Below are positions 1,909 through 14,333 of a stretch of 64,000 nt of DNA, one piece after another (positions within the stretch are counted from its first letter, which is position 1; every line of letters begins with the position of its first letter). Both the position numbers and the translations under genes were made by a program. Source of the DNA: Treponema sp. (lineage in GTDB: Bacteria; Spirochaetota; Spirochaetia; Treponematales; Breznakiellaceae). Below the pieces are notes generated by a model, which was not told the origin of the DNA, ran no database searches, and saw only the letters and a program-made list of their open reading frames with translations. The stretch is taken from the NCBI GenBank assembly GCA_031281025.1, contig JAITFY010000097.1:1-64000 (forward strand), in the 5' to 3' direction.

Positions 1909-3783
1909 ATGGAAAATAAAGAAGCTGATAATCCAGGTACTCCGGGAAATATCCAAAATTCCGAAATGGACGAAAAAGTATCCGATATTGACGATTTTTA
2001 CCAAAATATGACAGATGAGCTTAAAAAACAAAGAAATCTGCTTAAAGAACGCCTGGAACAACAGGAATTAATTTCAGAAATTTCCCGAAGCTTTGTTTCG
2101 TCAGGAGAATCACAAGCGCTTATAAACGAAGCCATTGCCAAATTGGGTAATTACCATAAAGTATCCAGAGTTATCATTTTTAATATGGATTACCATGGCG
2201 GTAATGTAAATATGATGTATCAATGGTCTACAGATAATCACATATTGCGCAAAGGAAATTTTGATATACATGCTTTTGCAAAATCCCATTTTCCGGAAAA
2301 ATTGTACGACAGCAGTTCGATGCCGTTTGTTTCATGTTCTGATACAACAAAAAGCACGATCGATGATGCCCGTGAATTGATAGTAGACGACGTTTATGCG
2401 TTTATCAGCGTACCGCTTTATGTCGAGGGGTTTTTATGGGGGGTGCTGGTTACAGAACAATGCCATACTCCGCGTCATTGGACAGACAACGAAAAAAGAT
2501 TTGTAACAATGATTGCAAGCACAATTGCCGCTGCAATCATGCTTGATGTTTACAATTATGAATTAAAAGACGCAATAACAAAAGTTACCGCTACAAGCAA
2601 GGCAAAAGGCGACTTCCTTTCTGTCATGAGCCACGAAATACGCACACCGTTAAACGTAATTTTAAACATGGCCTCAATTGCAAAAAACGCTGAGGATCTT
2701 GAACGAAAAGATTATGCGTTGGATAAAATAATTAATGCATCAAAACATTTATTGGGTGTAATTAATGATATATTGGATATGTCAAAAATCGAAGCCCATA
2801 AATATGAAATAGTACCGGTTAAATTTAATTTTGAAGAAATGATCTCGCGGGTTGTTGATATCATCAATTCCCGTGTGGAAGAAAAACAACAAAAATTATT
2901 AGTAAAAATAGACAAGAACATTCCAAAGAATATTGTTTGTGATGATCAGCGGCTTTCGCAGATAATAACGAATCTTTTGGGTAACGCAGTAAAATTTACA
3001 CCAGAAAATGGAACCATTAATCTTGAAACGCAATTGCTGGGAGAAAAAAACGAAGTTTGTACAATACAAATTGCAGTAACCGATACAGGAATCGGCATCA
3101 GTGCAGAACAACAAAAAAACCTGTTTCAGTCTTTTCAACAGGCGGAGGCCAACACGACGCGAAAATACGGCGGTACCGGTTTAGGGCTTTCGATCTCCAA
3201 AAGTTTTGTAGAATTGATGGGCGGAAACATCTGGGTTGAATCTGAACCCGGCAAGGGATCTACTTTTGCTTTTACAATTCAAGCACAACGCTGTCCGCTT
3301 TCTGAAAGTGAAGAAACCAATGAACAAACTGAAACAGAAGATCCTTCGGTTGGCAGTAAAGACCAAAAAGACACAAAAATAAATTATTCTGGTCACCGCA
3401 TATTACTTGTAGAAGATATGGAAATAAACCGCACGATTGTATTAATGCTACTGGAAGAAACAGAAATAAATATAGACTGCGCAGAAAATGGAGTACAAGC
3501 AGTAGAAATGTATAAAGAAAATCCAGGTAAATATGAAATGATTTTCATGGATATTCATATGCCAATAATGGACGGTTATGAAGCAACGCGTCAAATTAGA
3601 TTAATGGAAAAAGAGCAGAATGAAACTTCCGGGCAGCAAAATCGAATACCAATAATTGCAATGACTGCAAATGTTTTTAAAGAAGACATTGATAATTGTA
3701 TTAATGCAGGGATGGATGGCCATCTTGGAAAACCGCTGGATATTAATGCCTTTATGGAAAAACTCCATACCCATTTATTCTGA
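1909..3783 (+). CDS. Hybrid histidine kinase (GAF-like sensor, HisKA, HATPase, C-terminal receiver)
   Basis: H-box SHEIRTPLN, N/G boxes (NLLGNAVKFTPE, DTGIGIS, GGTGLGLSIS), receiver FMDIHMPIMDGYEATRQIR. Confidence 0.92.
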   Translation: MENKEADNPGTPGNIQNSEMDEKVSDIDDFYQNMTDELKKQRNLLKERLEQQELISEISRSFVSSGESQALINEAIAKLGNYHKVSRVIIFNMDYHGGNVNMMYQWSTDNHILRKGNFDIHAFAKSHFPEKLYDSSSMPFVSCSDTTKSTIDDARELIVDDVYAFISVPLYVEGFLWGVLVTEQCHTPRHWTDNEKRFVTMIASTIAAAIMLDVYNYELKDAITKVTATSKAKGDFLSVMSHEIRTPLNVILNMASIAKNAEDLERKDYALDKIINASKHLLGVINDILDMSKIEAHKYEIVPVKFNFEEMISRVVDIINSRVEEKQQKLLVKIDKNIPKNIVCDDQRLSQIITNLLGNAVKFTPENGTINLETQLLGEKNEVCTIQIAVTDTGIGISAEQQKNLFQSFQQAEANTTRKYGGTGLGLSISKSFVELMGGNIWVESEPGKGSTFAFTIQAQRCPLSESEETNEQTETEDPSVGSKDQKDTKINYSGHRILLVEDMEINRTIVLMLLEETEINIDCAENGVQAVEMYKENPGKYEMIFMDIHMPIMDGYEATRQIRLMEKEQNETSGQQNRIPIIAMTANVFKEDIDNCINAGMDGHLGKPLDINAFMEKLHTHLF

Positions 3784-10944: not shown

Positions 10945-11655
10945 TCATATAAGCCTATATTTTACCTTATGATCATAAACATCAACACCTTCTTTCTTTT
11001 TGAGAAATCCACATGCCCAATATGTAAAGGGAGTCATAACGATCTCTACACCGCATTTTAAAATATAATTTGTTATTACAAGACTCCAAAAGATTTCCCA
11101 CTTAAATACGCCGGTTGCACTGGCTATCAATACAAAGATAAATGTATCCAGAAACTGCCCAACCAATGAAGATCCGATAGTTCTTACCCAAAGCATACGT
11201 CCTTTCATTACAACTTTTATTTTGGAGAGAACTACCGCATTGGAAAATTCTCCTGCAAGGTATGCAGAAAGGCTTGCAAGCACGATGCCGCCATAGCTCA
11301 TCCCGCCTAAAATCGCATTAAACATTTCGTTTCCAACTTCGGCTTCCCAGAAAGATTCCGGCGGCAGCATACCCAATACGAAAAAAACCAATGTAGTAAG
11401 CGCCATTGCAATAAACCCCGTCCAGATAACGCGTTTTGCAACCTTAAACCCGTAAACCTCGGTAAGCACATCCGCCAGCACATAAACCAGCGGAAACAGC
11501 AGTGTTCCGCCGTCAAAAGCCAACGGAATCGCAAAAAGAGAAACTCCAAGATCGACAATTTTAGCCGAAGACGCAATGTTACTAACAATAAGAATCACAA
11601 CAAAAAAAGACGCAATTACATCCAGATACTTAAAAGAGACAGGTTGATTTGACAT
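10945..11655 (-). CDS. yhhQ: Queuosine precursor transporter, VUT/YhhQ family
   Basis: SNIASSAKIVDLG, FDGGTLLFPLVYVLADVLTEVYGFKVAKRVIW; start reassigned to ATG at 11655 after SD GAGG (ORF track extends into the leader). Confidence 0.9.
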   Translation of the reverse strand: MSNQPVSFKYLDVIASFFVVILIVSNIASSAKIVDLGVSLFAIPLAFDGGTLLFPLVYVLADVLTEVYGFKVAKRVIWTGFIAMALTTLVFFVLGMLPPESFWEAEVGNEMFNAILGGMSYGGIVLASLSAYLAGEFSNAVVLSKIKVVMKGRMLWVRTIGSSLVGQFLDTFIFVLIASATGVFKWEIFWSLVITNYILKCGVEIVMTPFTYWACGFLKKKEGVDVYDHKVKYRLI

Positions 11656-11660
11656 TTTTT

Positions 11661-11697
11661 CCTCGTTTTTTTTAAGCGGGTTACTAGGATACCGCTT
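11661..11697 (-). ncRNA. preQ1-I-type riboswitch aptamer upstream of yhhQ
   Basis: Minus-strand RNA AAGCGGUAUCCUAGUAACCCGCUUAAAAAAAACGAGG: P1 AAGCGG/CCGCUU, CUAGUAAC loop, A-rich tail, CCU/AGG pseudoknot over the SD. Confidence 0.88.
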
Positions 11698-11704
11698 GAG
11701 GGGT

Positions 11705-11751
11705 GTCGGCGACAAAAGTGCCATACGAGTATGGTGCTTTTGGTCGCCGAC
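11705..11751. repeat. 47-bp near-perfect palindrome in the yhhQ leader / glgP 3' region
   Basis: GTCGGCGACaAAAGtgCCATACgaGTATGGtgCTTTtgGTCGCCGAC. Confidence 0.85.
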
Positions 11752-11792
11752 AGGACCCCAAGTAAGCTATTTAGCAAACATTTCTGGAGTGC

Positions 11793-14333
11793 CTAGGCCC
11801 ATTTAATAAAGCCGCACCGATACGGATGAATCAAAGCTTCATGTTTGGGAAGTATGCGTATCGTATGCCCCTGCATTCCCGTATCCACACATTCAATACG
11901 AATTTGATATACGTTGATATTTCCTTCGCATTTTACCCATTTCATTTCGGTCTTTCTTGCATCGGCAATTTCATTGGTTTGATTTGAAACTGTGCCGTGA
12001 TACAATTCAACCAGCAGCTCGTTTGGAGAAATACTGCCTAAATCGAGATGGGCTGTTACCGTCAGCATATCGCCGCGTTGCATCACAGGTTTGGCATTGG
12101 ATTCGGTTTTTATGATTTTTAAGCCAGGCCATGCATGCTGCAATTTTGCAAAATACGCCGCGATAGATTTTGTTTCGGCATAGTCATCTTTACTAAAACG
12201 GCGATAATTCTTAAGCGCCGGAAAGTAAAATTGATTTGCATAATCCATTAACATCCTGTGACATGACATCGACTGCCCAATCTGCCTCATGCTGGCTTTC
12301 ATCATTTTTATCCAGCCTCGTGGAAGCCCGTCATTTCCCCTTTGGTAGAACAATGGAATAATATCCCGTTCAAGCAAATCATACAGCGCCTTGCTTTCTA
12401 CATCGTCCTGCAGTTTTTCGTCGTGATAATACTCACCATGACCGATTGACCATCCTGCTTCGGGATCGTAAGCTTCGTCCCACCATCCATCCATGATGGA
12501 GCAGTTAAGGACGCCGTTCATTGCCGCTTTCATACCGCTGGTTCCAGATGCTTCCATTGGCCGGCGCGGTGTATTCAGCCACACATCCCCGCCAGAGGTT
12601 AAATACTTTGCCACGTTCATATCGTAGTTTTCTACGAATACTATACGGTTTGAAACATCGTATTTATCCGCAAAGTGTATCAATTCACGGATTAGTTCCT
12701 TACCAGGTATATCATGAGGGTGCGCTTTGCCGGAGAAAATCAGCTGGACAGGGCGATCGTTGTTTTTTACAAGCCGAATCAAGCGTTCCGGATCGCGAAG
12801 CAATAGATTACCGCGTTTGTAAGTTGCAAAGCGGCGGGCAAAACAAAGAGTAAGCGCATAAGGAGAGAGAGCGTCTTCTGCCTGTCTAAAACGGCGCATA
12901 TCGACGCCTGTTCGCACGTATTGTGCATGGATACGTTCACGTATAAAGGCAACCAGCCGTTCACGGCGGCGCTCATGAGTACGCCAAAGTTCTTCGTCGG
13001 AAATACGGTCTATACGCTCCCAAATACTAAGCTCTGTTGGTTTATCTTCAAAGGTGGGGCCAAGATAGCGATCCAGTAATTCAAGCATACCGGAAGAAAT
13101 CCATGTGCGTGGATGAACACCGTTTGTGACATGCCCTATTGGTACTTCGTTCAGCGGAAGCCCCGGCCACAGTCCTCTCCACATATCCCGTGATACAACA
13201 CCATGAAGTCTTGCAACACCGTTGACATAAGCCGACAATTTCATTGCCAACACTGTCATACAGAAAACTTCACGCTCATCATTTACATCTATTCGCCCCA
13301 GTCCAAGGAATTCTTTCCAGGAAATACCCAGTACTTGCGACCAGCTCTTGAAGTATTTATCCATCATGGCAATATCAAAACGTTCATGTCCTGCCGGAAC
13401 AGGTGTGTGTGTAGTGAATAAATTTGTAGGCCAAATAAGTTCGCACGCTTCATGAAACGAGAAGTTTTTCTCTGTCATGATTTCACGGGCACGTTCCAGT
13501 GCAAGGAATGCCGAATGTCCTTCGTTCATGTGAGTTGCTGCCGGGTTGATTCCTATCGCTCTTAAAGCACGAATACCGCCGATGCCAAGGAGAATCTCCT
13601 GCTGCATACGGGTTTCTTTATCTCCGCCATACAGAGCTGCTGTTACATTTCGGATATCCTGCGTATTTTCTTCCATGTTGGTATCCAACAGGTATAATGA
13701 AGAACGTCCTACTTTTACTTCCCAAATTTGAGCGACAGCCTGCTGTCCCGCCAAATCTACGGAAATTTTAATCGGCGCGCCATCTTTGTCAACTTTTCTT
13801 TCTACCGGCATATTGTACCAGTCATTTTCCGGGTAACTTTCCTGCTGGAATCCATCGGCGTTCAGCATTTGCTTAAAATACCCTTGACGGTACAACAGCC
13901 CGATACCAACCAATGGCAGCCCCATATCCGATGAAGCTTTCATGTGATCCCCAGAGAGAATCCCAAGGCCGCCGGAATAAATAGGCAGAGCCGCATCCAT
14001 TCCGTATTCCATCGAGAAGTATGCTACAACATCCTTGTAGTTCCCCCGGTACCAGGTATCGCCTTTTTTATAGCGTTGAAACCTGTCATAAACTTCCTTG
14101 AGAGCCGCAAGGTACGAATCGTCATTTGCGGTCTGCGCAAGCCGTTCCTGGCTGACCATTCCCAGTGTCCGTATAGGACTTTGCTGAGATTTAAGCCAGG
14201 CATCAAAGTCCAGCCTGATAAAAAGCTGAACCGCGTCATAATTCCACGATAACCAAAGATTGCGGGCAATCTCCTCTAAAGGTTTTAATGCCGCAGGGAG
14301 TTTTGGTTTAACTGTATATGTTGATACGTTCAT
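11793..14333 (-). CDS. glgP: Alpha-glucan (glycogen/maltodextrin) phosphorylase
   Basis: AYFSMEYGMDAALPIYSGGLGILSGDH, THTPVPAGHERF, GKAHPHDIPGK, TSGGDVWLNTPRRPMEASGTSGMKAAMNGVLNCSIMDGWWDEA. Confidence 0.96.
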   Translation of the reverse strand: MNVSTYTVKPKLPAALKPLEEIARNLWLSWNYDAVQLFIRLDFDAWLKSQQSPIRTLGMVSQERLAQTANDDSYLAALKEVYDRFQRYKKGDTWYRGNYKDVVAYFSMEYGMDAALPIYSGGLGILSGDHMKASSDMGLPLVGIGLLYRQGYFKQMLNADGFQQESYPENDWYNMPVERKVDKDGAPIKISVDLAGQQAVAQIWEVKVGRSSLYLLDTNMEENTQDIRNVTAALYGGDKETRMQQEILLGIGGIRALRAIGINPAATHMNEGHSAFLALERAREIMTEKNFSFHEACELIWPTNLFTTHTPVPAGHERFDIAMMDKYFKSWSQVLGISWKEFLGLGRIDVNDEREVFCMTVLAMKLSAYVNGVARLHGVVSRDMWRGLWPGLPLNEVPIGHVTNGVHPRTWISSGMLELLDRYLGPTFEDKPTELSIWERIDRISDEELWRTHERRRERLVAFIRERIHAQYVRTGVDMRRFRQAEDALSPYALTLCFARRFATYKRGNLLLRDPERLIRLVKNNDRPVQLIFSGKAHPHDIPGKELIRELIHFADKYDVSNRIVFVENYDMNVAKYLTSGGDVWLNTPRRPMEASGTSGMKAAMNGVLNCSIMDGWWDEAYDPEAGWSIGHGEYYHDEKLQDDVESKALYDLLERDIIPLFYQRGNDGLPRGWIKMMKASMRQIGQSMSCHRMLMDYANQFYFPALKNYRRFSKDDYAETKSIAAYFAKLQHAWPGLKIIKTESNAKPVMQRGDMLTVTAHLDLGSISPNELLVELYHGTVSNQTNEIADARKTEMKWVKCEGNINVYQIRIECVDTGMQGHTIRILPKHEALIHPYRCGFIKWA

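Follow-up and report, generated by a model that had tools for sequence, protein, structure and literature searches.

A predicted preQ1 class I-type riboswitch over the Shine-Dalgarno of a queuosine-precursor transporter gene in Treponema

The short leader of a transporter gene in Treponema sp. raises the question whether a compact RNA overlapping the ribosome binding site may work as a riboswitch and, if so, which ligand it senses, how it acts, and which of the known types it resembles. The DNA analysed, hereafter the window, is a stretch of 64,000 nucleotides. The element found in it is best read as a preQ1 class I riboswitch controlling the translation of a queuosine-precursor importer, a reading to which we assign a probability of about 0.9.

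The leader and its gene

The gene resides at 10945..11655 of the minus strand, and encodes a queuosine-precursor transporter of the YhhQ/COG1738 type. The protein read from the ATG at 11655 (11655-11653) matches both PF02592 (E 2e-46) and TIGR00697, the queuosine precursor transporter family (E 3.1e-31, over the curated cut-off), and the yhhQ-family assignment made in the original prediction is confirmed by both. The longest ORF reaches up to 11724, within a hairpin located upstream, and would cover the aptamer, a masking effect that had been foreseen. The homologous proteins of relatives begin at or after 11655, and the aptamer is therefore untranslated leader.

Read on the minus strand, the leader sequence is CUC-AAGCGG-UAUCCUAGUAAC-CCGCUU-AAAAAAAAC-GAGG-AAAAA-AUG. 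The RNA initially described is found there letter for letter, with P1, loop, A-rich tail, and a CCU/AGG pairing that includes the Shine-Dalgarno (SD). The aptamer is made of 37 letters (11697-11661, minus strand, as are all the features that follow), and overlies the SD of the importer gene. P1 is a helix of 6 bp, in which the 5' strand AAGCGG (11692..11697) pairs with the 3' strand CCGCUU (11674..11679, supported by sequence and by pairing in relatives), 11697-11692 facing 11679-11674. The helix closes the loop UAUCCUAGUAAC (11691-11680), 12 letters long, which is made up of L1 UAU (11689..11691), the P2 5' strand, or anti-SD, CCUAG (11684..11688), L2 UAA (11681..11683, assigned by sequence) and, as last letter, C11680. 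This residue, adjoining the P1 3' strand, is the predicted ligand-specificity cytidine (for its role, see PMC11625349), and forms with the preceding A the 'AC' considered a signature of types II and III (PMC11625349). L1 varies elsewhere, being UA in most same-genus relatives, and UC in most of the more distant relatives as well as in the aptamer of Thermoanaerobacter tengcongensis (Tte). Past P1, the A-rich linker L3, a run of eight A (11666..11673), leads to the P2 3' strand CGAGG (11661..11665), which includes the SD GAGG (11664-11661) and is separated from ATG 11655 by 5 nt. In the pseudoknot, CCU 11688-11686 pairs with AGG 11663-11661, and G11684 with C11665; P2 is interrupted by an A.G mismatch, A11685 lying opposite G11664.

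The features of class I are recognizable in this arrangement: a loop closed by a P1 helix of about 5 bp, with an A-rich tail behind it, an H-type pseudoknot P2 joining the loop to the 3' tail, an invariant cytidine (C11680) adjoining the P1 3' strand, and the location ahead of a queuosine-precursor transporter gene.

Conservation among Spirochaetota

No match to Rfam was found in the whole window at curated cut-offs, and the case was therefore built from relatives. At the site, RF00522 (PreQ1) ranks first among 4227 Rfam families (21.4 bits, E 0.052), and the site is in turn the best one of RF00522 in the 2.35 Mb genome. The search with the Rfam preQ1 covariance model, indicated at the outset as a check, thus gave a mixed answer: the family is the right one, but the score does not reach the gathering cut-off of 39 bits, which is a database cut-off, and not a biological criterion. 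The cut-off was passed by 0 of the 40 genomes of the genus. RF00522 gave no match, even at E 10, at the yhhQ type III preQ1 riboswitch of E. coli K-12 (L121, 2180-2217), which has been validated (PMC10622847). As the model is blind to a validated switch, a sub-threshold score is no evidence against membership. A strict descriptor covering P1, loop and tail, drawn up once the site was known, identified one site in the window, and 0 sites in simulated sequence (3.84 Mb) of matched dinucleotide make-up.

In 22 aligned same-genus relatives the motif lies directly 5' of the homologous transporter gene, and it has been identified in more distant spirochaetes as well. Over 26 aligned sequences, the tail AAAAC and the cytidine preceding the P1 3' strand never vary. 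The inner five pairs of P1 are 100% paired in the same set, and two of them covary, with double changes from G-C to A-U and from A-U to G-C. P2 cells are 84% paired, one layer being often mismatched, and compensatory changes occur at 2 of the 5 pairs; the changes seen in relatives are U-A to C-G, U-A to A-U, and mismatch to U-A or A-U. Pairing with the SD is kept, and P2 covaries, in support of the proposed occlusion of the SD by the pseudoknot. The covariation score (0.253) is above all 500 shuffles (0.147 +/- 0.016) and slid versions (<=0.127), with the caution that P1 variation comes from two pairs and that the aligned rows are related.

A covariance model built from the 26 aligned rows (R1) served to scan 393 Spirochaetota genomes. 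R1 detects one site below E 0.01 in the genome of the window (E 2.4e-12). Among the 27 loci retrieved at E<=1e-4, 25, the window included, lie before a TIGR00697 transporter gene, and 2 before a QueF-II gene. Since queF was absent from the construction of R1, its recovery represents an independent functional link. Above E 1e-4 matches are mixed with noise, and those followed by unrelated genes or by none (such as L106 and L107, and L105, which has no ORF) were discarded as noise. A second model (R2) includes other genera and families only, and was derived from a length-matched subset because MAFFT misaligned short-loop relatives. R2 finds the window with 32.6 bits (E 2.2e-8), and this match, along with conservation and covariation in relatives, bears out the preQ1-I-type architecture first proposed.

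Some loci deserve mention on their own. In other Spirochaetota the same aptamer type precedes queF (QueF-II), at 1501-1549 of L100 and 1501-1545 of L103, both on the minus strand. In L012 two preQ1-type aptamers (2364-2402 and 2191-2242, minus strand), about 160 nt apart, precede one transporter gene; the pair sits in a duplicated leader segment, and the one lying upstream shows an SD-like AAGG, but lacks a start codon nearby. In L031 (2197-2269, minus strand) a hairpin is inserted in the aptamer loop, which spans about 38 nt; P1, the A-rich tail and the SD are unaffected, and the score with R2 is 43.3 bits.

Mode of control and alternatives

The gene lying upstream (11793..14333, minus strand) encodes an alpha-glucan phosphorylase of the glgP type (TIGR02094, E 3e-257). 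glgP also precedes the transporter gene in several relatives, and the two genes are probably co-transcribed. Control may perhaps be exerted on the second gene of a putative glgP operon. In some relatives (for instance L013) about a dozen bases separate the glgP stop from the aptamer, and no terminator was found at the site. SD burial, lack of a terminator and the short gap seen in these relatives favour translational control. About ten retrieved same-genus copies of the transporter gene have no aptamer before it, and the aptamer is therefore not essential. In same-genus loci of this sort (L017, L021, L032, L035 and L042, the last from a named Treponema MAG) the transporter frame lies a few bases past the glgP stop codon, which suggests that translational coupling to glgP has replaced the switch, now lost.

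In the model proposed, the P1 hairpin alone would form when preQ1 is scarce, the SD GAGG would be free, and the importer would be made. preQ1 would lodge between P1 and P2, paired with C11680, and lock the H-type pseudoknot; with the loop CCU placed on the SD AGG, ribosomes could not start, and import would stop. We infer preQ1 as the ligand, an OFF direction, and translational rather than transcriptional control, and most likely the importer gene is shut off when preQ1 is plentiful.

Between glgP and the aptamer lies the long hairpin of a dispersed palindromic repeat (11698..11762, reaching about 11787, minus strand), recognized from copies, alignments and folds. The repeat, about 100-130 bp in size and with outer arms CAGAAATGTNTGC...GCATACATTTCTG, has seven further copies in the genome. 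As a dispersed repeat, the hairpin was ruled out as a part of the riboswitch. The copy in the window is without the right arm, and abuts P1 exactly, fused to the riboswitch; in a relative (L011) the same repeat has an intact right arm, and is followed by a spacer, and then by the aptamer. From this comparison, the window leader looks like the result of a deletion ending at P1, by which the aptamer was left whole. In folds, the SD can be paired, in the absence of ligand, with the CCUC end of the repeat (11701-11698), and such pairing may lead to low basal expression if the transcript starts upstream. The element could thus be of the preQ1-I type by descent, and yet impaired or overridden here, the CCUC of the repeat sitting on the SD and keeping the gene low regardless of the ligand. 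We deem this unlikely. When CCUC is included in a minimal fold it pairs with GAGG, and the unpaired probability of the SD is 0.01, whereas the SD is free when CCUC is omitted; the exact junction of repeat and P1 fits the same picture. In the full leader, however, CCUC is taken up by other pairs, which leaves the SD largely unpaired (0.68-0.86). Moreover, no damage is seen in P1, P2, L3 or the pocket C, and the transcript may begin within the repeat or below it.

The identity of the ligand may be judged from the queuosine genes. The genome encodes TGT, QueA and QueH, the latter split over two contig ends. QueF was found neither in the genome of the window nor in four better-covered same-genus relatives (94-100% complete); as the window's assembly is 82% complete, gene absences rest mainly on the relatives. 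Matches to QueC are partial and weak (<=24.7 bits); other PP-loop ATPases would be expected to give such matches, and none was counted as QueC. Lacking QueF, preQ1 could not be made from preQ0, and importing preQ1 for TGT, QueA and QueH is hence the natural pathway. The organism appears, by its gene content, to have uptake as its only source of preQ1, and a preQ1 switch on the importer, acting in the presumed OFF direction, would represent plain feedback. That the aptamer binds a related 7-deazapurine (preQ0, queuine, or a guanine-like compound), and not preQ1, is quite unlikely. To our knowledge, all known members of this aptamer architecture sense preQ1, which speaks against preQ0 and queuine. 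Type II aptamers do bind preQ0 as well as preQ1 (PMC11625349, PMC10622847), and both compounds are carried by YhhQ-type proteins (PMC10622847, PMC5372724). Yet imported preQ0 would not be convertible without QueF, and this leaves preQ1 as the useful ligand. A plain ligand-free hairpin followed by an A-rich SD leader, resembling an aptamer by chance or generically, is hardly credible. In its favour are the sub-threshold Rfam score and the frequency of A-rich leaders in AT-rich genomes; against it, P1 and P2 covary, the pocket letters are invariant, and the models retrieve only queuosine genes at E<=1e-4.

Type of the aptamer and significance

The definitions of the preQ1-I types reportedly stem from McCown 2014. 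Type I aptamers carry UU after P1, with UC adjoining the P1 3' strand, and bind two preQ1 molecules (PMC11625349, PMC8752633). The signature is absent in the window, which has UA after P1 and AC before the P1 3' strand; the AC excludes type I (following PMC11625349), and UA together with AC leads us to predict a single ligand. The type I aptamer of Carnobacterium shares with the window the class I pseudoknot fold, the A-rich L3 and the location of the SD in P2, and differs by its UU and UC, and by the two preQ1 bound. The type III signature (UU after the P1 5' strand, a compact pyrimidine loop, a fully paired AAGG) is not found either, the window having UA and a 12-letter loop with AG, and the CCU/AGG pairing as the only type III trait. 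The type III aptamer of E. coli yhhQ, in which SD occlusion is full (PMC10622847), is similar in target gene family, in the pyrimidine-rich CCU matched to AGG, and in the AC before the P1 3' strand. It differs by the UU that follows P1, a tight loop (about 8 letters), an SD A touching the ligand, and the lack of a ceiling G-C, whereas the window has UA, a loop of 12 and a predicted G-C ceiling. The E. coli yhhQ site is not found by R1.

Type II is marked by AC before the P1 3' strand, and by a single-ligand pocket with a G-C ceiling; the window has the AC, and the pair G11684-C11665 as putative ceiling. Tte, a type II aptamer in which L2 is UAA-C, shares with the window the H-type pseudoknot, the AC, the L2 UAA and, by prediction, the G-C above the ligand and translational SD occlusion. 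Resemblance to Tte, noticed from the start, extends to relatives: the loop UCGCAGNNAC occurs in many spirochaete relatives, several carry the Tte loop pattern UCGCAG, and Tte-like tails AACAAAAC-AAGG are found. In Tte only C9 pairs with the SD, the rest of P2 consisting of non-canonical contacts (PMC10622847). Unlike Tte, the window and 20 of the 22 aligned same-genus relatives have 3-4 standard pairs over four SD positions, whereas spirochaetes outside the family, which have mostly Tte-like loops (UCGCAGNNAC and similar), have 1-2 SD positions paired, short-loop alignments being soft and SD-pair counts dependent on the anchoring G chosen. The loops that provide these 3-4 pairs exceed that of Tte by two or more letters. 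The original prediction had pointed to the Tte form in particular, a resemblance that is correct; as a refinement, three SD letters are here in Watson-Crick pairs, more than in Tte, and nearer to the E. coli type III. The best reading of the sequence is that of an aptamer with a type-II-like pocket and a type-III-like SD occlusion.

The closest named relatives are Treponema MAGs, which we take, from the sample names, to be of termite-gut origin. The chances are evenly balanced that the preQ1-I aptamers of Spirochaetota make up a large group which Rfam overlooks, and that one lineage within it, termite-gut Treponema, went over from partial SD occlusion of the Tte kind to full occlusion by Watson-Crick pairs. 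The series of relatives suggests a passage from partial to full occlusion within one phylum. If true, these would be naturally occurring aptamers midway between types II and III, with one ligand and tighter switching than Tte. Novelty is limited, the architecture, the ligand class and the target gene having all been described elsewhere; a real preQ1-I-type riboswitch, of a known kind, unannotated in this group, and with a modest structural twist, is well supported by the comparisons made. preQ1-type control would thus reach a phylum outside the phylum list of a 2024 review (PMC11625349), and the stock Rfam model misses the spirochaete group as well as the type III switch of E. coli. Relatives with one to four SD pairs would provide a ready set in which the extent of SD burial may be compared with switching strength.
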